From: Rhizobium indicum | GTDB taxonomy: Bacteria > Pseudomonadota > Alphaproteobacteria > Rhizobiales > Rhizobiaceae | Assembly: GCF_005862305.2 (NCBI RefSeq) | Contig: NZ_CP054021.1 | Location: 2,294,001-2,358,000, forward strand | Direction of reading: 5' to 3' | DNA: 64,000 nucleotides | Shown here: piece by piece, positions 56 to 11,115 of the stretch | How positions within the stretch are numbered: the stretch's first letter is position 1 | Layout: every line of letters starts with the position of its first letter | The notes under the pieces: model-generated | What the model was told of the DNA's origin: nothing | Seen by the model: only the letters and a program-made list of their open reading frames with translations | Database searches by the model: none | Position numbers and translations under genes: made by a program

Positions 56-1626
56 GTACTTTCGGCGCATATTTCCGCCTTTGGCGCGTCGGCTGGGTGC
101 TCGTGCGTGAGGGTGTCGTGTCCGCCCTTCCTTCCGAAGGGCTGCCGCCTCCGGTGGCGCTCGCCAAATCCTTCGTCACGATTTTCGAGCGAAGCAAGGC
201 GCGGCATCAGAAGCGCAGCGACCGGCTGGCCCAGGCTGTCGAGCGGCTCGGTCCCTCCTATGTGAAGATCGGCCAGTTCCTGGCGACGCGGCCGGATGTC
301 GTCGGCGTCGAATTCGCCAACGACCTGTCGCAGCTTCAGGACCGGATGGCCTTCTTTCCCTCGGCAGCCGCCAAGGCCAATATCGAAGGCTCGCTCGGAC
401 GGCCGATCGGCGAGCTCTATGCGAGCTTCGGCGATCCGATCGCCGCCGCCTCGATCGCGCAGGTGCATCCGGCCGAGGTCGATAGCGCCGAGGGCCGGAA
501 GAAGGTCGCCGTCAAGATCGTGCGGCCCGGCGTGCGCCAGCGCTTTGCCCATGACATCGAGGCAATGTATCTCGTTGCCCATATGCAGGAGCGTTTCCTG
601 CCGTCCAGCCGGCGGCTGCGGCCGGTCGAAGTGACGAAGACGCTCGAGCAGACGACCAAGGTGGAGATGGATCTCCGCCTGGAGGCGGCAGCCCTTTCCG
701 AGATCGCCGAAAATACCGAAAAGGACCCGGGTTTCCGCGTGCCGAAGGTCGACTGGGAGCGCACCGGGCGCGACGTCATCACCATGGAGTGGATCGACGG
801 CACGAGAATGTCCGATGTCGAGGGCCTGCGCGCGGCGGGCCACGATCTCAACCTGCTTGCCGATACGCTGATCCAGTCGTTCCTGCGCCACACGCTGCGC
901 GACGGCTTCTTCCATGCCGACATGCATCCGGGCAATCTCTTCGTCGATGCGGGCGGCATGATCGTCGCCGTCGACATGGGCATCGTCGGGAGGCTGGGCA
1001 AGAAGGAGCGGCGGTTCCTCGCCGAAATCCTTTATGGCTTCATCACCCGTGACTATATCCGCGTCGCCGAGGTGCATTTCGAGGCCGGCTATGTGCCCGG
1101 CCACCACAATGTCGAAAGCTTCGCCCAGGCGATCCGGGCGATCGGCGAGCCGATCCATGGACAGCCGGCCGAGACGATCTCGATGGGCAAGCTGCTGACG
1201 CTGCTGTTCGAAGTGACCGAACTCTTCGACATGGCGACGCGGCCGGAGCTGGTGATGCTGCAGAAGACCATGGTCGTGGTCGAAGGCGTGTCGCGCATGC
1301 TCAATCCACGCTTCAACATGTGGAAAGCCTCCGAGCCTGTCGTCGGCGACTGGATCCGTACCAATCTCGGGCCGAAGCGGATCGCCACCGATATCAAGGA
1401 CGGGCTGAAGGCGGCAGTGAAGCTCGCCGAAGCCGTGCCGGAAATCGCGGCAAAAACCGAAAAATTCCACCACCAGCTTCTGCATATGAGTGAGCACGGC
1501 TTACGTTTCGATGCTGAGACGGCGGAGGCGATCGGTAAGGCCGAAGCGCGGCACAACCGTTCGGCCAAGATTGCGCTGTGGGTCATCGCATTGACGCTTC
1601 TCTATATTGCCTGGATGCTGAGCTGA
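52..1626 (+). CDS. ubiB: UbiB, ubiquinone biosynthesis atypical kinase/ATPase
   Basis: Membrane-bound accessory factor of aerobic ubiquinone biosynthesis, of the ABC1/ADCK/UbiB atypical kinase family; it supports the ring-modifying steps rather than catalysing hydroxylation itself. Seen here: the family KxGQ motif (KIGQ, residues 72-75), the Ala-rich nucleotide loop ending in AQVH (about 131-139), a VAVK lysine (155), the catalytic-loop HADMHPGN (288-295), a DMG in place of DFG (308-310) and a hydrophobic C-terminal anchor (about 505-521). Length 524 aa is normal. The ATG overlaps the stop of the preceding frame. In many alphaproteobacteria ubiB lies directly before coaBC; here about 13 kb of other genes separates them. 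Confidence 0.95.
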   Translation: MSTFGAYFRLWRVGWVLVREGVVSALPSEGLPPPVALAKSFVTIFERSKARHQKRSDRLAQAVERLGPSYVKIGQFLATRPDVVGVEFANDLSQLQDRMAFFPSAAAKANIEGSLGRPIGELYASFGDPIAAASIAQVHPAEVDSAEGRKKVAVKIVRPGVRQRFAHDIEAMYLVAHMQERFLPSSRRLRPVEVTKTLEQTTKVEMDLRLEAAALSEIAENTEKDPGFRVPKVDWERTGRDVITMEWIDGTRMSDVEGLRAAGHDLNLLADTLIQSFLRHTLRDGFFHADMHPGNLFVDAGGMIVAVDMGIVGRLGKKERRFLAEILYGFITRDYIRVAEVHFEAGYVPGHHNVESFAQAIRAIGEPIHGQPAETISMGKLLTLLFEVTELFDMATRPELVMLQKTMVVVEGVSRMLNPRFNMWKASEPVVGDWIRTNLGPKRIATDIKDGLKAAVKLAEAVPEIAAKTEKFHHQLLHMSEHGLRFDAETAEAIGKAEARHNRSAKIALWVIALTLLYIAWMLS

Positions 1627-1658
1627 CCGCGTGCCAAAAACATGCGGTGTTCGGCATT

Positions 1659-1670
1659 TGGGATATCCCA
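1659..1670. promoter_or_regulatory. 12-bp perfect palindrome in the leader of the ergothioneine-type operon
   Basis: TGGGATATCCCA reads the same on both strands. It sits in the 89-bp gap between ubiB and the lyase gene, 45 bp before the lyase ATG. It could be an operator for a regulator encoded elsewhere, since no regulator gene lies in the operon. Function is inferred from position only. Confidence 0.4.
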
Positions 1671-1715
1671 TATGACGGAGGGCTCGCTTAGTCTCACTTT
1701 TAAGGAGATAGGCAC

Positions 1716-3302
1716 ATGAAGCACGAACGCCTTGGCATCGAACTTTCCGGACGACCGCTCGGTTTTGCCGAGATGGTGACGATTGGCGCGGGCAAGGCTG
1801 TGATTTCGGCTTCGGCGACAGGCATGGCCCGCATCGCGATCGCCCGCGAGGTCGTCGAGGATGCGATTGCCTCCGGCATGCCCGTCTACGGCTCGACGAC
1901 AGGCGTCGGCGCCATGAAAGATGTGGAGTGGTCGGCCGACGAACTCGACACCTTCAATCTCGGCCTGGTGCGCGCCCATCATTTCGGCACCGGCACACCC
2001 TTTTCCTGCAATATCGTGCGCAATGCCATGGCGATCCGCATCAACACGGCGCTGACCGGCCAGGTCGGCTGCACGCCGGAGCTGATCCAGGCCTATATCA
2101 GAATGCTCGAGGCCGATCTCATCCCGGTCGTGCGCCGCACCGGCTCGATCGGCTGTGCGGATATCGGCCTGATGGGACAGATCGGCGCGGTGCTGACCGG
2201 CGTCGGCGAAGCGATCTATCGCGGCAACCGGATGCAGGCGGCCGAGGCTTTCCAGGCGGCCGGGCTGGAACCGATGCGTATGGCGCCGCGCGACAGCCTC
2301 GCCTCGCTCAGCATCAATGCGGTGAGCTTTGCCTCGGCGGCGGAAACGACCCGCAACGCCGCGGCCTCGATCCGCGTCCTGCTGGCGACGGCGATGATGG
2401 CGGCCGGCGCGCTTGGCGCCTCCCGCGATCCCTGGAAGGCGGTCCGGCATGTCGGAACGGCGCGCGAAGCGCTGATCGGCGCCTGGCTCTGCAATGCCTC
2501 CGACGAATGGAACTGGCCTGTGGCCACGCATGTGCAGGATCCGCTCAGCCTGCGCATGATCGCCCAGGTGTTCGGCGCAGTGATCGAAAACCTCTTATCG
2601 ACCGGCCACAAGATCCTTGCCGCCACCGGGCGCTCGGACGACAATCCCGTCGTGGTCGAAGGCCGGGTGATGACGTCGGGGGGCTCGCTGCCGCTCGATG
2701 TGACGATCCTGCTCGAATCGGCAGCACTCTGCATGGCGCATGCGGCGCGCAACGCCTTCAACCGCTGCGTCATTCTCGGCAACGGCCAGCGGCGCGACCT
2801 GCCGGTTAATCTCGTGCCGCCGGGGCGGATCGCCACCGGTTTCGGGCCGATCATCAAACTTGCCGGCGAGATTTTCTCGCGCGTGCTGTCGATGTCCAAT
2901 CCCGTGTCGGCCCAGTCGCTGGTCGTCGCAGCCGGGCTGGAGGACGAGGCAGCCTTCCTGCCGCTCGTCATCGAACGCTTCGACCGGCAGATGCGGGCGC
3001 TGAAGCGCCTCGCAGCCCTCGAGGCGCTACTGTCTGCCCAGGCGATCGATATTCTCGGCGATGAACCGAAGGGTGTCGCCGCCATGCTCTACGCGGTCGT
3101 GCGCAAACATGCGGATTTCTATACGGTCGACCGGCCGCTTTCGGCTGAAGTGGAGGCGATCGAGGAGGAACTTGGTTCGGACGAATTCGTTACGAAGCTG
3201 ACCGAGCAGGTTCCGATCGCCTCCTTCGACGATTTCTTCGCCCTCGGCTCGCTGGAGCGCATCGAGGAACGGCTGACCCATCACGAGCCGGCAGCAGTCT
3301 GA
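1716..3302 (+). CDS. Ergothionase-type lyase (MIO-less histidine ammonia-lyase homologue)
   Basis: Aromatic amino acid lyase fold, 528 aa. Fold landmarks are present: the tyrosine loop VYGSTTGVG (Tyr58), and GSIG (143-146) leading into the site where HAL/PAL enzymes carry Ala-Ser-Gly, the triad that cyclises to the MIO electrophile. Here residues 147-149 read Cys-Ala-Asp, so MIO cannot form. Ergothionases are known HAL relatives that eliminate trimethylamine from ergothioneine to give thiourocanate without MIO, because trimethylamine is already a good leaving group. The downstream genes match the remaining steps of that pathway. A strong ribosome site (AAGGAG, 1702-1707) fixes the start. First gene of a tight operon. 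A lyase for another trimethylammonium or amino acid substrate is possible but less likely. Confidence 0.85.
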   Translation: MKHERLGIELSGRPLGFAEMVTIGAGKAVISASATGMARIAIAREVVEDAIASGMPVYGSTTGVGAMKDVEWSADELDTFNLGLVRAHHFGTGTPFSCNIVRNAMAIRINTALTGQVGCTPELIQAYIRMLEADLIPVVRRTGSIGCADIGLMGQIGAVLTGVGEAIYRGNRMQAAEAFQAAGLEPMRMAPRDSLASLSINAVSFASAAETTRNAAASIRVLLATAMMAAGALGASRDPWKAVRHVGTAREALIGAWLCNASDEWNWPVATHVQDPLSLRMIAQVFGAVIENLLSTGHKILAATGRSDDNPVVVEGRVMTSGGSLPLDVTILLESAALCMAHAARNAFNRCVILGNGQRRDLPVNLVPPGRIATGFGPIIKLAGEIFSRVLSMSNPVSAQSLVVAAGLEDEAAFLPLVIERFDRQMRALKRLAALEALLSAQAIDILGDEPKGVAAMLYAVVRKHADFYTVDRPLSAEVEAIEEELGSDEFVTKLTEQVPIASFDDFFALGSLERIEERLTHHEPAAV

Positions 3303-3325
3303 TTTCCAGTTACGGAGGAAGCAGC

Positions 3326-4705
3326 ATGGACTTCGATCTCGTTCTGCAGGGCACAGTGGTGCTGCCGGACCGCATTGTCGAAGAGGGCTATGTCGCCGTG
3401 CGCGACGGCAAAATCGCCGAGGTCGGCCTCGGCGTACCGCCGGCGGGCCGCGAACGGCATCTGCTCGGAAAAGCGCTGATCCTGCCCGGTGCGATCGACG
3501 CGCAGGTGCATTCGCTTTCCCAGAAAGACCAGGAGGATTTCATCTGGTCGACGCGCTCGGCGGCGGCCGGCGGGGTGACTGTCATTGTCGACATGCCCTA
3601 TGACGAAGGCAATCTCGTCTGCTCGGCAGCGGCGGTGAAGCGGAAGATCGGCCATGCCGGTCCGCAGGCGCGGGTCGATTTCGCGCTTTACGGCACCGTC
3701 GATCCGGAAGAAGGCCCGGCGCGCATCCGTGAAATGGTGGAGGCAGGCGTTGCGGCCTTCAAGTTTTCGACCTTCGGCACCGACCCCAAGCGCTTTCCGC
3801 GCATTCCGCCGGCCCTGCTCGACGCCTGCTTTGCGGCAATCGCGCCGACGGGACTGACGGTGGGCGTGCACAATGAAGACGACGAGGCGGTGCGCACTTA
3901 CATGGAACAGGTGAAGGCGAGCGGCATCACGGACTGGCGGGCGCACGGCCTGTCGCGGCCGCCGATCACCGAACTGCTGGCGATGCATACGATCTTCGAG
4001 ACCGGCGCCAATACCGGCTGCCCGGCGCATGTGGTGCACTGCTCGCTCGGGCGCGGCTACGATATCGCGCGCGCCTATCGCCGCGATGGCTTTGCGGCAA
4101 CGGTCGAATGCTGCATCCACTACCTGACGCTCGACGAGGAAAACGACGTGAAGCGCCTCGGCGGCAAGGCGAAGATCAATCCGCCTGTGCGGCCGCGCGC
4201 CGAGGTGGAGAGGCTCTGGCGGAAGGTGGCGGAGGGTGACGTCTGGCTGGTCTCGACCGATCACGTCAGCTGGTCGGAAAACCGCAAGACCAATCCCGAC
4301 ATGCTCGCCAACGCCTCGGGCGTTCCCGGCCTCGAGGTGATGGTGCCGCTTTTCGTCAAAGGTGCCGTGGAACGCGGCATTCCGCTGACATGGGCCGCCA
4401 GGCTGATGGCAGAGAACCCGGCGAAGCATTTCCGGCTCGACCATATCAAGGGCGCGCTGACCCCGGGCAAGGATGCCGATATCGTCGTGCTGGAGCCGCG
4501 CGACAGTGTCTATGATGCCGCAGCCAGCGGCAACAACGTCGTCGGCTGGAGCCCCTATAACGGCATCCGCCTGCCCTGGACCGTTTCCGCCACCTATCTC
4601 AGGGGCGAAAAGATCGCCGAGGGCGCGAAGGTGCTGGCCAAGCCCGGCAATGGGCGCTTCGTGCGACCGCTGCCGCGCCAGGTCATTGCGGGAGCTGAAG
4701 CATGA
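3326..4705 (+). CDS. Hydantoinase/dihydropyrimidinase-family hydrolase (hydantoin-5-propionate ring opening)
   Basis: Cyclic amidohydrolase, 459 aa, cytosolic. Binuclear metal ligands line up with D-hydantoinase: His62, carboxylated Lys146 (AAFKFS), His182 (GVHNED), His238 (HVVHCS) and Asp312 (STDH). The first ligand of the usual HxH is Gln60 (DAQVH); this DxQxH form also occurs in some dihydroorotase/allantoinase relatives. In the ergothioneine pathway the penultimate step is opening of the hydantoin ring to N-carbamoylglutamate, done by an enzyme related to uracil-catabolic hydrolases; this gene fits. It starts 23 bp after the lyase stop, behind GGAGGAAG, and its end overlaps the next start by 4 bp. 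Confidence 0.82.
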   Translation: MDFDLVLQGTVVLPDRIVEEGYVAVRDGKIAEVGLGVPPAGRERHLLGKALILPGAIDAQVHSLSQKDQEDFIWSTRSAAAGGVTVIVDMPYDEGNLVCSAAAVKRKIGHAGPQARVDFALYGTVDPEEGPARIREMVEAGVAAFKFSTFGTDPKRFPRIPPALLDACFAAIAPTGLTVGVHNEDDEAVRTYMEQVKASGITDWRAHGLSRPPITELLAMHTIFETGANTGCPAHVVHCSLGRGYDIARAYRRDGFAATVECCIHYLTLDEENDVKRLGGKAKINPPVRPRAEVERLWRKVAEGDVWLVSTDHVSWSENRKTNPDMLANASGVPGLEVMVPLFVKGAVERGIPLTWAARLMAENPAKHFRLDHIKGALTPGKDADIVVLEPRDSVYDAAASGNNVVGWSPYNGIRLPWTVSATYLRGEKIAEGAKVLAKPGNGRFVRPLPRQVIAGAEA

Positions 4706-5982
4706 GCCGCAATCTTCCCGTCAATGCCAGCCAGATCGCTGAAGATATCGAGACGCTGGCCGGGATCACCGAGCCGGGGCATCCCTGGACACGGCGGGCT
4801 TTCTCGCCGCTCTTTCTCGATGGCCGGGCCTATATCGAGGTACGGATGAAGGCGGCGGGGCTGGAAACGCGGATCGATGCCGCCGGCAATCTGATCGGAC
4901 GACGGACAGGCCGGAAACCGTGGCTCGGCACGATCATGGTCGGCTCGCATTCCGACACGGTGCCGGACGGCGGCCGCTTTGACGGCATTGCCGGGGTCAT
5001 CTCGGCGCTGGAGGTGGCGCGGGCGTTGCGCGACCAGGACATCGAGCTCGATCACGATCTCGAAATCGTCGATTTTCTTGCCGAAGAGGTCAGCATCTTC
5101 GGCGTGTCCTGTATCGGCAGCCGCGGCATGACCGGCCAACTGCCGGAGGCCTGGCTTTCGCGCGTCAGCGACGGGCGCGACCTGGCCGAGGGCATCGCTC
5201 AGGTCGGTGGCAGACCCGATGTGCTGATGCAGCAGAACAGGCCCGATATAGCAGGTTTTCTCGAGCTTCATATCGAACAAGGTCCGGTGCTCGAAGCCGA
5301 AAAGCAGGATATCGGCATCGTCACCGCGATATCAGGCATCACCCGCATCGAGATCACCGTCGAAGGGCGGGCCGACCATGCCGGCACGACGCCGATGGAC
5401 CGGCGGGCGGATGCGCTGGTGGCGGCGTCACAGCTGGTGCTCGACATCCGCAACGCCGCTGCAGAGCTTGCCAAAACACCGGGCCATTTTGCAGCAACGG
5501 TCGGCGAATTCCGCATCGAGCCTAATGCCGCCAATGTCGTGCCGTCAAAGGTGGTGCTGCTGATCGATGGACGCGCGGAAATCCGCGCCGACATGGAGGC
5601 ATTCTGCCGCTGGCTCGACGGCCATGTCGAAAAGCTGGCAGGGGCCTACAGCGTGACGATCAAGGCGCCGAACCGGATTTCCGACAATCTGCCGACGCCT
5701 GGCGATGCCGGGCTGCTGTCGACGTTGGAGGCTGCCTGCGAGCGGGTCGGCGCGAAGCACAGGCGAATGGCCTCCGGCGCGGGGCACGATACGGCCTGGA
5801 TCGCCAAGGTGGCACCGGCAGCGATGATCTTCGTGCCCTGCCGGGAAGGCCGCAGCCATTCGGCCGACGAGTGGGCTGACAATGACGATATCGCGCTCGG
5901 CGCCGCCGTGCTTTTCGAAGCGGTGCGCGAAATGGACAAGAGCTTGAATCAGGAGAAGGCGAATGGGACGCATACTGGTTGA
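4702..5982 (+). CDS. M20 N-carbamoyl-amino acid amidohydrolase (probably N-carbamoyl-L-glutamate)
   Basis: Zinc amidohydrolase of the allantoate / L-carbamoylase / beta-ureidopropionase group, 426 aa. Motifs: GSHSDTVPDGGRFDG with His83 and Asp94, the Glu pair 128-129, His190 (LELHIEQGP), dimerisation-domain His226 (DHAGTTPMDRR) and C-terminal His386 (GRSHSADE). In ergothioneine degradation the last step hydrolyses N-carbamoylglutamate to glutamate, CO2 and ammonia. By sequence alone allantoate amidohydrolase or hydantoin utilisation would also be possible; the neighbours decide. It overlaps the preceding gene by 4 bp and the following by 20 bp, so translation is probably coupled. Confidence 0.83.
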   Translation: MSRNLPVNASQIAEDIETLAGITEPGHPWTRRAFSPLFLDGRAYIEVRMKAAGLETRIDAAGNLIGRRTGRKPWLGTIMVGSHSDTVPDGGRFDGIAGVISALEVARALRDQDIELDHDLEIVDFLAEEVSIFGVSCIGSRGMTGQLPEAWLSRVSDGRDLAEGIAQVGGRPDVLMQQNRPDIAGFLELHIEQGPVLEAEKQDIGIVTAISGITRIEITVEGRADHAGTTPMDRRADALVAASQLVLDIRNAAAELAKTPGHFAATVGEFRIEPNAANVVPSKVVLLIDGRAEIRADMEAFCRWLDGHVEKLAGAYSVTIKAPNRISDNLPTPGDAGLLSTLEAACERVGAKHRRMASGAGHDTAWIAKVAPAAMIFVPCREGRSHSADEWADNDDIALGAAVLFEAVREMDKSLNQEKANGTHTG

Positions 5983-7060
5983 GAAGGACGTGGAAGCCGC
6001 CGTCAAAGGCGGCTCCGTCTATGCCGCCGGCGGCGGCGGCTGGGCCGATCACGGGCGGATGCTTGGGCTTGCCGCTGTCAATGTCGGCAAGCCGGAGCTG
6101 GTCTCGATCGACGAGCTGAAGGACGAGGAGTGGATCGCAACCGCGGCCGCGATCGGCGCACCGGCCTCCACAACCCCCTGGGAAATGCAGGGCATCGACT
6201 ATGTGAAGGCGGTGCAATTGCTGCAGGAGACGCTGGGCGAAAGGCTGTCCGGGCTGATCATCGGCCAGAACGGCAAGTCCTCGACGCTGAACGGCTGGCT
6301 GCCATCGGCGATCCTCGGCACCAAGGTGGTCGACGCCGTCGGCGATATCCGCGCACATCCGACGGGCGACATGGGCTCGATCGGCATGGCCGGATCGCCC
6401 GAGCCGATGATCCAGACCGCTGTCGGCGGCAATCGGGCCGAAAACCGTTATATCGAACTGGTGGTGAAGGGTGCGACGGCGAAGATCTCGCCGGTGCTGC
6501 GGGCTGCGGCCGACCAATCCGGCGGCTTCATCGCCAGCTGCCGCAATCCGCTCCGAGCCTCCTATGTCCGCACCCATGCGGCGCTCGGCGGCATCTCGAT
6601 GGCGCTTGCGCTCGGCGAAGCGATCATCGCGGCGGAGAAGCGCGGCGGATCTGCCGTCATCGACGCGATCTGCAAGACGACGGGTGGCCATATCCTTGCC
6701 GAAGGCGTCATCACCCGCAAGGACGTCGTCTACACCAAGGAAGCCTTCGACATCGGCACGATCATCGTCGGCTCGGGCGGAACATCGGTGACGCTGCATG
6801 TGATGAACGAATATATGGCGGTGGACGACGCGGGTGGCGGGCGGCTAGCGACTTTCCCCGCCGTCATCACCACGCTTTCACCGGAGGGCGAGCCGCTTAG
6901 CGTCGGCCAGCTACAGGAGGGCATGCATGTCTTCATCCTGCATGTGCCGATGGAGATCATTCCGCTGTCGGCAAGCGTGCTCGATCCGACCGTCTATCCC
7001 GTCGTCGAAAAGGCGATGGGGATCGAGATCGCACGTTATGCACTGGCGACGAAGGCCTGA
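5963..7060 (+). CDS. DUF917 protein, probable thiohydantoin desulfurase
   Basis: 365 aa, no signal peptide, Gly-rich N-terminus (AAGGGGWADHG, about residues 21-31) typical of DUF917 proteins, which are often found beside hydantoinases. In the reconstituted bacterial ergothioneine pathway a previously unknown enzyme type removes sulfur from the thiohydantoin-propionate intermediate and links the histidine-like half to the uracil-like half. This gene lies between the carbamoylase and the urocanase homologue and is the best candidate. AGGAG upstream of 5963 supports the start inside the preceding gene. The exact substrate is inferred from context. Confidence 0.75.
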   Translation: MGRILVEKDVEAAVKGGSVYAAGGGGWADHGRMLGLAAVNVGKPELVSIDELKDEEWIATAAAIGAPASTTPWEMQGIDYVKAVQLLQETLGERLSGLIIGQNGKSSTLNGWLPSAILGTKVVDAVGDIRAHPTGDMGSIGMAGSPEPMIQTAVGGNRAENRYIELVVKGATAKISPVLRAAADQSGGFIASCRNPLRASYVRTHAALGGISMALALGEAIIAAEKRGGSAVIDAICKTTGGHILAEGVITRKDVVYTKEAFDIGTIIVGSGGTSVTLHVMNEYMAVDDAGGGRLATFPAVITTLSPEGEPLSVGQLQEGMHVFILHVPMEIIPLSASVLDPTVYPVVEKAMGIEIARYALATKA

Positions 7061-7064
7061 GCCC

Positions 7065-7394
7065 GTGGCGCGCGATCCCGGCCTCGAAGAACTGATGCGT
7101 GAGGAACTCGGCGATCGGCCGGGCCTTGCCGAAAAATCCATGTTCGGCGGCTGGGCCTTCATGCTGAATGGCAATCTTCTCTGCTGCGCGCGCCATGACG
7201 GCATGCTGATCCGCCTCGGCAAGGGCGATGACGGCTGGGCGCTGGCTCTGCCGGGCGTGATCCAGATGCTGTCGGGCGAGCGGGTGATGCATGGCTGGGT
7301 GCGCGGCAATGCCGAAGTTTACGGCGACGATGCTCTGAGACGGCGTCTGCTCGATGCAGCACTTGCCTATGTGGAATCGCTGCCGAGCAAATAG
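7065..7394 (+). CDS. TfoX N-terminal domain protein in the ergothioneine-type operon
   Basis: 109 aa from a GTG at 7065, 4 bp after the DUF917 stop; the open frame continues upstream but that part overlaps DUF917 and is not plausible protein. Core motif KSMFGGWAFMLNGNLLCC (about residues 24-41) is typical of TfoX-N domains, alpha/beta proteins known mainly from the competence regulator TfoX but common as stand-alone proteins of unknown role. The C-terminal TfoX domain is absent. Its place between two enzyme genes, with short spacing, suggests a function in the same pathway (accessory, sulfur handling or regulatory). I do not assign one. Confidence 0.7.
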   Translation: MARDPGLEELMREELGDRPGLAEKSMFGGWAFMLNGNLLCCARHDGMLIRLGKGDDGWALALPGVIQMLSGERVMHGWVRGNAEVYGDDALRRRLLDAALAYVESLPSK

Positions 7395-7412
7395 AAAAAC
7401 GAGGAACCCACG

Positions 7413-9074
7413 ATGCCGAAGGCCAATCCACGTCATCCGAAATTTCCGATTCCCGGCGGGCCGGAACTGCGGGCCAAAGGCTGGCGGCAGGAGGCGCTGC
7501 TGCGGCTGCTCGAAAACGTGCTCTCCGTCGGTGAGGATCCCGACAATCTGATCGTCTATGCCGCGCTCGGCAAGGCGGCCCGCAACTGGGCGGCGCACAG
7601 AGGCATCGTCAAGGCGCTGACCGAGATGGAAGAGAACCAGACGCTGCTCATCCAGTCCGGCAAGCCGATCGGGCTCGTTCGAACGCATGCCAAGGCGCCG
7701 CTCGTCATCATGGCGAACTGCAATATTGTCGGGCAATGGGCAAAGGCCGAAGTGTTCTACGAGCTGCAGCGCAATGGACTGATCTGCTGGGGCGGGCTGA
7801 CGGCCGGCGCCTGGCAATATATCGGCAGCCAAGGCGTCATCCAGGGCACGTACGAGATCTTCATGCGCATTGCCGAGCGGCGCTTCGGCGGCGATCTCCT
7901 CGGCCGGTTCGTGCTAACGGCCGGTCTTGGCGGCATGGGCGGAGCGCAGCCGCTCGCCGGCCGCATGGCGGGGGCTGCGATCCTCTGTGTCGACATCGAT
8001 CCGGAGCGTGCCCGCAAGCGCCAGCAGATCGGTTATCTCCAGGAAATCGCGCCCGATCTCGACACCGCCCTTCAGATGATCGATGCGGCGGTGAAGGATA
8101 AGCGGGCGCTTTCCGTCGGGCTCGTCGGCAATGCGGCGGAAGTCTATCCCGAGATCGCCCGGCGCGGCATCGTGCCCGATATCGTCACCGACCAGACCTC
8201 GGCGCATGACCTCGTCTATGGCTACGTGCCGAAAGGCATGAACCTCGCTCAGGTCAAGGGCCTGCGCGACGATGGCCAGGGGCAATTGATGGCGGCAAGC
8301 CGCGCCTCGATCGTCGACCATGTGACGGCGATGCTGGAATTCCAGAAACGTGGCTCGGAAGTCTTCGATAATGGCAACCTGATCCGCACGCAGGCCAAGG
8401 AGGGCGGCGTTGCCAATGCCTTCGACATTCCGATCTTCACCGAAGCCTATCTCAGGCCGCTGTTTGCCCGGGCGATTGGCCCATTCCGCTGGATGGCGCT
8501 ATCGGGCGAGGAGAGCGATATCGCCCGGATTGACGACCTGCTGCTCGAGATGTTCCCCGACAACAAGATCATAACCAACTGGATCCGGCTGGCGCGCGAG
8601 CATGTGCCCTTCGAAGGGCTGCCGGCCCGCATCGCCTGGCTCGGCCACGGCGAACGCACGGCACTCGCAAGGCGCGTCAACGCGCTGGTTGCGAGCGGCG
8701 AACTCAAAGGCCCGGTCGCCTTCTCCCGCGACCATCTCGACGCCGGCGCCATGGCGCATCCGAATATCATGACTGAGGGGATGAAGGACGGCTCGGATGC
8801 GATCGCCGACTGGCCGCTGATCGATGCGATGATGCTCTGCTCGTCGATGGCCGATCTGGTCGTCATCCATTCCGGCGGCGGCGGTTATGCGGGCTATATG
8901 ACGAGCTGCGGCGTCACCGTCATCGCCGACGGCACGGATGCCGCAGACGAACGGCTCGACCATGCACTGACCAACGATACGGCGCTTGGCGTCATGCGTT
9001 ACGCCGATGCCGGTTATGAGGAGGCGCTGGACGAGGTGGCGAAGAAGGATGTGCCCTATATCCGGCTTGGTTGA
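7413..9074 (+). CDS. Urocanase-family enzyme, probable thiourocanate hydratase
   Basis: Urocanase family, 553 aa, NAD+-dependent. The NAD-binding signature TAGLGGMGGAQPLAGRMAG and the DQTSAHD segment are clear. In canonical urocanases a cysteine follows the PARI segment (Cys410 in Pseudomonas putida HutU, aligned by eye); here that residue is Ala408 (PARIAWLGHGE). Thiourocanate hydratases are known as urocanase relatives with a distinct active site, and this gene shares an operon with an ergothionase-type lyase and no hutI/hutG homologues. Probable role: hydration of thiourocanate to the thiohydantoin precursor. GAGGA upstream of the ATG supports the start. Confidence 0.8.
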   Translation: MPKANPRHPKFPIPGGPELRAKGWRQEALLRLLENVLSVGEDPDNLIVYAALGKAARNWAAHRGIVKALTEMEENQTLLIQSGKPIGLVRTHAKAPLVIMANCNIVGQWAKAEVFYELQRNGLICWGGLTAGAWQYIGSQGVIQGTYEIFMRIAERRFGGDLLGRFVLTAGLGGMGGAQPLAGRMAGAAILCVDIDPERARKRQQIGYLQEIAPDLDTALQMIDAAVKDKRALSVGLVGNAAEVYPEIARRGIVPDIVTDQTSAHDLVYGYVPKGMNLAQVKGLRDDGQGQLMAASRASIVDHVTAMLEFQKRGSEVFDNGNLIRTQAKEGGVANAFDIPIFTEAYLRPLFARAIGPFRWMALSGEESDIARIDDLLLEMFPDNKIITNWIRLAREHVPFEGLPARIAWLGHGERTALARRVNALVASGELKGPVAFSRDHLDAGAMAHPNIMTEGMKDGSDAIADWPLIDAMMLCSSMADLVVIHSGGGGYAGYMTSCGVTVIADGTDAADERLDHALTNDTALGVMRYADAGYEEALDEVAKKDVPYIRLG

Positions 9075-9121
9075 TCAAAAATTGCTGTATATCGTTGTCA
9101 CATCTCATCGGGAGTCATGAC

Positions 9122-9340
9122 ATGGAAACAGCAAAGATCTTCTGGTCGGGGTGTTCTCAAGCCGTCCTGCTCCCCAAGGAATTCCGTTTCGACGGCGACA
9201 GCGTCGCCATTCGACGGCAGGGGCGTGCGATCATTATCGAGCCGATTTCCGATGATTGGGACTGGCTTGCCGACCTGGCCGGTCCGGTCGATGCCGATTT
9301 TGCAACAGCGGTGGAAGAACAGCCTGCTGGGCAGGAGTGA
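9122..9340 (+). CDS. VapB/MazE-type antitoxin
   Basis: 72 aa. The N-terminal SpoVT/AbrB-like swapped-hairpin pattern is visible (KIFWSGCSQAVLLPKEFRF, then VAIRRQGRAIIIEP), followed by an acidic toxin-binding tail. Start chosen at METAKIF; an upstream in-frame ATG at 9071 overlaps the preceding gene and adds non-conserved residues. Such antitoxins bind their own promoter and neutralise a PIN-domain VapC encoded immediately downstream. Here the downstream toxin gene is broken, so the antitoxin is an orphan. Confidence 0.75.
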   Translation: METAKIFWSGCSQAVLLPKEFRFDGDSVAIRRQGRAIIIEPISDDWDWLADLAGPVDADFATAVEEQPAGQE

Positions 9341-9360
9341 TCCAAACTGGACTTCTTCAA

Positions 9361-9480
9361 ATGAAGTAGCTGGTTGACGCGAGTGCCGTCATTCCAATGA
9401 TGAAGGGCAACGATCGTCTCGTCGCAAAACTGGGCAAACACCCGCAAATCTTCGACGGATCGGCTGGAGCCGAGCAGCGC
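9361..9480 (+). pseudogene. Decayed VapC PIN-domain toxin fragment
   Basis: Directly after the antitoxin the plus strand encodes MK, a TAG stop (9367-9369), then LVDASAVIPMMKGND and RLVAKLGKHPQIF. This matches the start of rhizobial VapC ribonucleases (typically MKYLLDTNAVI, with the catalytic Asp in the first strand). The TAG replaces a tyrosine codon. Homology stops near 9480 where the convergent VOC gene ends, so most of the PIN domain, including the later acidic residues, is missing. No functional toxin can be made. Confidence 0.65.
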
Positions 9481-9481
9481 G

Positions 9482-11115
<1,634 letters not shown>

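Follow-up and report, generated by a model that had tools for sequence, protein, structure and literature searches.

Bacteria are said to degrade ergothioneine, a compound that contains sulphur and is produced by fungi and some bacteria, in five steps, reportedly worked out by Beliaeva, Leisinger and Seebeck in 2021. We analysed a 64,000-nucleotide stretch of the Rhizobium indicum chromosome (the window; G000:C1:2294001-2358000 of a 7.53 Mb genome), in which a plus-strand operon at 1716–9074 encodes all five enzyme classes of that pathway, four of them above the cut-offs of the ergothioneine-pathway models of NCBIfam; the lyase is the fifth. We are confident that the operon is a complete ergothioneine-to-glutamate pathway, most likely switched by a distant LysR-type regulator with tandem helix–turn–helix (HTH) domains at the sequence TTGGGATATCCCA. 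The pathway itself is already known, and what is new is its conservation across the genus, a split regulon, and a predicted regulator and operator. Features that we state of the Rhizobium operon alone are its fixed chromosomal place by ubiB, a TfoX_N gene inside it, the lack of an in-operon transporter and an unlinked regulator. The histidine utilization (Hut) pathway is similar in that HutH and HutU are homologues of the Rhizobium lyase and hydratase, respectively. The lyase, however, lacks the methylideneimidazolone (MIO) triad, and the operon has no imidazolonepropionase but a desulfurase, a hydantoinase and a carbamoylase instead; Hut-type genes lie elsewhere in the same genome. The five-step pathway of 2021 is in the reference list of PMC9732360, and according to PMC13405746 ergothionase has been definitively identified in few organisms only, Agrobacterium radiobacter included, for which a sulfonate pathway is cited. 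In the literature searched, the coverage of which was partial, with most subscription journals outside it, nothing was found that describes the Rhizobium operon or its regulation.

The operator and the genes are as follows.

1648–1670, no strand assigned: predicted operator TGTTCG-N3-TTTGGGATATCCCA, with a LysR-type box T-N11-A at 1658–1670; conserved upstream of the lyase.
1716–3302, plus strand: putative ergothionase-type trimethylamine-lyase (MIO-less homologue of histidine ammonia-lyase, HAL), step 1; 528 aa, assigned by motif, sequence and fold.
3326–4705, plus strand: predicted hydantoin-5-propionate amidohydrolase (ErtD), step 4; 459 aa, NF058538 780.9 bits (cut-off 600).
4702–5982, plus strand: predicted N-carbamyl-L-glutamate amidohydrolase (ErtE, M20 family), step 5; 426 aa, NF058540 633.4 bits (cut-off 520).
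5963–7060, plus strand: predicted thiohydantoin desulfurase (DUF917), step 3; 365 aa, NF058529 595.5 bits (cut-off 440).
7065–7394, plus strand: small TfoX_N-domain protein; most likely GTG start, 109 aa, in 68 of the 80 named loci.
7413–9074, plus strand: predicted thiourocanate hydratase (urocanase homologue), step 2; 553 aa, NF058530 1056.2 bits (cut-off 930).

In the order of reactions that is reportedly that of the pathway, the lyase would convert ergothioneine to thiourocanate and trimethylamine, the hydratase would yield thiohydantoin propionate, and the desulfurase would turn this into hydantoin-5-propionate with loss of sulphide. ErtD would then open the way to N-carbamyl-glutamate and ErtE to glutamate. 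The enzymes were identified from curated models, signature residues and fold; substrate and flow are our inference.

The lyase has no MIO triad, reading G-CA-D where HutH-type enzymes have G-ASG-D; the triad is missing in 80/80 named loci (throughout, the best 80 of 161 found) and in 120/120 among the homologues listed. Its nearest solved relative, both by sequence and by fold, is the Treponema denticola ergothionase (PDB 6s7j), with which it has K68, D308, H342 and K381 (window numbering) in common; these positions differ in P. putida HutH. The signature lysine of ergothionase is reportedly catalytic. The two enzymes thus have a MIO-less HAL fold and signature residues in common but are only 25–26% identical and belong to separate subfamilies, and the MIO site is GCAD in the Rhizobium lyase and GEGD in the Treponema enzyme. 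Lyases of Rhizobium leguminosarum strains and of R. johnstonii 3841 are 99% identical to that of the window. Motif, sequence and fold support the assignment as a putative trimethylamine-lyase of the ergothionase type. A role in the reportedly known degradation of N-tau-methylhistidine is disfavoured, since ammonia elimination should need MIO.

For the other enzymes we used NCBIfam equivalog models with curated cut-offs (2026 library), which holds specific ergothioneine-pathway models for four of the genes. The M20 protein also matched the generic Zn-dependent hydrolase model NF009531, more strongly (847.5 bits) than NF058540. With four proteins above cut-off and a MIO-less lyase that carries the ergothionase signature and is nearest to 6s7j, the five-step ergothioneine pathway proposed in the original prediction, which was made from the window alone, is supported. 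That prediction also expected automatic annotation to label the genes as histidine or allantoin degradation. Generic labels are indeed found in the record of a plasmid cluster (aromatic amino acid ammonia-lyase, amidohydrolase, Zn-dependent hydrolase, DUF917, urocanate hydratase), but four of the genes are now covered by NCBIfam models of their own, and to that extent the expectation no longer holds.

The homologies also allow for a second Hut operon, in which the lyase would act as a histidine ammonia-lyase and the urocanase homologue would be a conventional HutU. There are matches to Hut families for both proteins, the lyase has the HAL fold and is given the name of a histidine ammonia-lyase or an aromatic amino acid lyase in the sources, and the urocanase homologue passes the hutU model TIGR01228 (688.7 bits, cut-off 375). 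The best matches, however, are not to true HutH and HutU: the thiourocanate hydratase model outscores hutU for the latter protein, and the lyase falls far short of the cut-off of the hutH model TIGR01225 (205.6 bits, cut-off 539.15). The MIO triad is absent from every lyase counted above, and the genome has a HutH-type gene with an ASG triad on contig C3, where it adjoins a further urocanase homologue. To our knowledge, Hut involves neither a desulfurase nor hydantoin steps. Judged by motif and model scores, a Hut operon is extremely improbable, and we reject it. It is also very unlikely that the enzyme set acts mainly on S-methyl-ergothioneine or ergothioneine sulfonate and not on ergothioneine. 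The Treponema ergothionase reportedly accepts the sulfonate. The sulfonate pathway cited in PMC13405746 was reported from A. radiobacter, a relative. A thiohydantoin desulfurase should nevertheless be needless for a sulfonate, which is disfavoured as the main substrate, and the S-methyl pathway was rejected on model scores: the DUF917 protein falls below the S-methyl desulfurase model (278 bits, cut-off 450) and the urocanase homologue below the S-methyl hydratase model (732.9 bits, cut-off 880), whereas the thio models are passed.

All five open reading frames of the operon were found on the plus strand where the original prediction had placed them, and their Pfam families agree (Lyase_aromatic, Amidohydro_1, Peptidase_M20, S-Me-THD_N/C, which is DUF917, and Urocanase N/Rossmann/C). 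The short gaps or overlaps that it described were also confirmed, with 4 bp shared by hydantoinase and M20 genes and 20 bp by M20 and DUF917 genes; the spacing between successive genes is +23, −4, −20, +4 and +18 bases. It overlooked the TfoX_N gene between the DUF917 and urocanase genes. A Shine–Dalgarno-like AAGGAG stands before the ATG of the lyase, 89 bp separate the end of ubiB from the lyase, and VOC and MFS genes follow downstream on the opposite strand. The order ubiB–lyase–hydantoinase–M20–DUF917–urocanase on one strand was found at 75 of the 80 named loci (67 of these with TfoX_N), and the gene set is not a chance assembly because this order is kept. One of the other five loci has the five enzymes and no ubiB within the stretch taken, one ends after the hydantoinase at a contig end, and three have lyase and ubiB only. 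Eight loci with all five enzymes, including that of a metagenome-assembled genome (L197), are without TfoX_N, and the TfoX_N protein may be a lineage-specific passenger or an accessory.

The desulfurase exceeded its cut-off in 131/148 Rhizobium genomes. Outside the genus it did so in 26/391 genomes of an order sample (32/397 counting six of the genus), in 1/15 of those listed there from the same family, and in 2/394 of a phylum sample (6/398 counting four of the genus). The operon adjoins ubiB in 16/16 genus loci fetched from the 131. Among seven of the 17 operon-free genomes, five have a VOC or MFS gene directly after ubiB, and the other two yielded no match to any neighbour tested. Because ubiB runs straight into VOC/MFS where the operon is missing, the cassette extends from lyase to hydratase. 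As a cassette flanked by ubiB and the VOC/MFS pair, the operon is near-universal in Rhizobium and missing from a few lineages. R. wenxiniae (L198) and a Rhizobiales isolate (L200) have the lyase alone beside ubiB and a desulfurase elsewhere in the genome, accompanied by M20 and hydratase genes and with no hydantoinase in the stretch taken; that distant desulfurase led us to reject an orphan lyase in these genomes. Both the desulfurase and the hydratase reading frames of Shinella sp. UYSO24 (L199, L258) are broken, and no operator precedes its lyase, which may reflect decay or sequencing error. All five enzymes are clustered on large plasmids in Rhizobium sp. SL42 (L260) and on a 1-Mb plasmid of Ochrobactrum quorumnocens (L259).

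Outside the genus there are 26 clusters, 19 of which were fetched. A lyase lies within the stretch in 11; since the other eight stretches (one a 6-kb contig) contain none, the pairing of lyase and cluster is not universal. Ten of the 11 lyase clusters have a four-subunit quaternary-amine ATP-binding cassette (ABC) transporter between the lyase and the remaining genes, seven have a divergent LysR-type gene beside the lyase, and in O. quorumnocens the transporter and LysR lie together with all five enzymes, the lyase included. The substrate-binding protein (SBP) of one cluster, L080, matches an OsmF-type model (490.7 bits, cut-off 400). Among solved proteins it is far nearer a proline/glycine-betaine SBP (471 bits) than EgtUC (105 bits). 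An EgtU orthologue is unsupported by these scores, although the in-cluster transporters belong to the same quaternary-amine-binding class as the EgtU importer (PMC9732360). Since the in-cluster transporter suits a trimethylammonium compound, it lends independent support to a betaine substrate.

R. indicum has the same four-subunit transporter outside the window, at C1:2146381-2151995, 148 kb from the operon; its SBP is 64% identical to that of L080, and it lies beside a LysR gene (G000:C1:2146381-2147625). The product of this gene has two HTH_1 stretches and is 33% identical over both to the L080 LysR. We interpret this arrangement in Rhizobium as a split regulon. The transporter next to LysR would be the likeliest importer, with uptake by an OsmF-type quaternary-amine system; this assignment is weaker than those of the enzymes. 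That the transporter is strictly bound to the pathway in Rhizobium was rejected, as it is present in all 17 operon-free genomes.

The LysR gene was found (E ≤ 1e-60) in 130 of the 148 Rhizobium genomes, 13 of the matches listed spanning one stop codon. It is present in 130/131 operon genomes and in 0/17 others (Fisher's p = 2e-21, a value that ignores kinship). The sole operon genome without it, G110, is an 82% complete assembly of 1320 contigs in which the desulfurase is present. The neighbouring SBP gene is kept in 147/148 genomes (the sole exception, G044, carries the operon) and serves as a control against simple loss of the region. At the transporter locus, LysR is absent from all seven operon-free genomes examined and stands beside the SBP gene in 13/13 operon genomes, in nine of them between SBP and cutC, with no cutC in the stretch of the other four. 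In the seven operon-free genomes cutC lies <300 bp from SBP in four and 1.3 kb away in one; the stretches of the remaining two lack cutC. Four changes are required on a ubiB tree built from 31 operon-bearing and 17 operon-free rows, at least three of them forced by well-supported branches, which amounts to about four co-losses.

Between ubiB and the lyase, TGTTCGGCATTTGGGATATCCCAT occupies 1648–1671, and its 13-base core TTGGGATATCCCA (1658–1670) has dyad symmetry and fits the LysR box. LysR-type regulators follow the rule T-N11-A for such boxes. The core was sought within 700 bp upstream of the lyase, with the reversed pattern as a control. It occurs with at most one mismatch at 78/80 named loci and with two at one more; the one locus without it is that of Shinella (best site five mismatches). 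All 16 genus loci, a set that overlaps the 80, have it with at most one mismatch. In the 11 lyase clusters outside the genus the mismatches number 0 (four clusters), 2 (two), 3 (two), 4 (two) and 5 (one), while the control gave three mismatches once and otherwise four to six. In the seven of these clusters with LysR, the core lies between LysR and lyase with 0–3 mismatches. Four lyase-less clusters with a LysR-like match have best sites with 2, 3, 5 and 6 mismatches, and no core was found next to the LysR of the SL42 plasmid cluster. The sole exact copy of TTTGGGATATCCCA genome-wide is the site ahead of the lyase; allowing two mismatches on both strands gave 15 sites, against 11 for the reversed pattern. 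The full operator was not found at the LysR/transporter locus, where the only site, with 2 of 12 positions mismatched, lies over the SBP ribosome-binding site. In L122, L123, L124, L129 and L130, of the R. leguminosarum group, an inserted stretch that looks palindromic by eye separates operator and lyase start; the operator is at −160, −171 and −166 in L122, L123 and L124.

We regard the LysR as most likely the dedicated regulator of the operon, its binding to the core being predicted; it would probably act as an activator, with ergothioneine or an intermediate as inducer. Alternatively, the distant LysR is unrelated to the operon, and lineage descent alone explains why the two are kept or lost together. 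The distance is 148 kb, with only a weak operator-like match near the gene, the absences fall in a few clades, and not all clusters elsewhere have both LysR and operator. Such a coincidence would nonetheless have to repeat itself in at least three separate changes of the operon on the ubiB tree, LysR following in each absent genome, without co-loss of the adjoining transporter. It would also leave aside the seven of 11 clusters outside the genus in which a tandem-HTH LysR adjoins the lyase with the palindrome between them. We consider it unlikely.

More broadly, we think it probable, with less assurance than for the pathway itself, that ergothioneine catabolism is near-core in Rhizobium, and that its dedicated two-HTH LysR was split off with a betaine-type transporter yet kept or lost with the operon. 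Rhizobia would thereby sense and feed on ergothioneine from soil fungi, actinobacteria or plants. EgtD has no match in the R. indicum genome (EgtB and other routes were not searched), and the ergothioneine therefore probably comes from outside; self-made ergothioneine was rejected as a source on the same ground. Two of the 148 genus genomes have EgtD above cut-off (290.9 bits) and three more reach 271–274. Fungi and actinobacteria make ergothioneine, and plants take it up from soil (PMC7653990). The frequency of the desulfurase in Rhizobium, set against 2/394 in the phylum sample, suggests that ergothioneine serves rhizobia in their niche as a regular nutrient, supplying carbon, nitrogen and sulphur. 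The predicted regulator, operator and inducer are directly testable in laboratory strains, and operator and lyase signature offer simple markers for ergothioneine degraders and trimethylamine producers still labelled as having histidine or aromatic amino acid lyases.

Consensus scans of 1500–9600 gave three sigma-70-like sites (1.2, s.d. 1.2, in shuffles), none of them ahead of the lyase, and two terminator-like sites (4.8 in shuffles), none directly after the last gene. RNA from 9060–9160, directly 3′ of that gene, folds better than shuffles (z −2.9; 1/200 as good) and is without a T run acceptable to the terminator scan. A gene that by eye resembles dnaA (L055:6327-7898, minus strand) lies ∼6 kb ahead of the operon, a short way outside the window, and the cassette may therefore sit near a replication-initiation region.

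Two further HAL homologues were noted. One, also MIO-less and annotated as histidine ammonia-lyase, is at C2:434699-436135 of the same genome (L056:8657-10306, minus strand) and on pRL12 of R. johnstonii 3841 (L261). It scores higher against ergothionase (267.5 bits) than against HAL-type chains (≤ 243.5 bits); Arg replaces His88 and the ergothionase lysine is kept, each in 120/120 among the homologues listed. Its neighbours encode a glycine-betaine-type SBP, a HutC-like regulator, a CoA-transferase, a MaoC hydratase, an SDR and an OCD-family protein, and it is possibly a trimethylamine-lyase for another aromatic betaine. The other (L057:16089-17576, plus strand; C3:376113) has an MIO site three residues shorter in the alignment, is without the ergothionase lysine, and is preceded by an open reading frame that by eye resembles an ABC-transporter ATPase.

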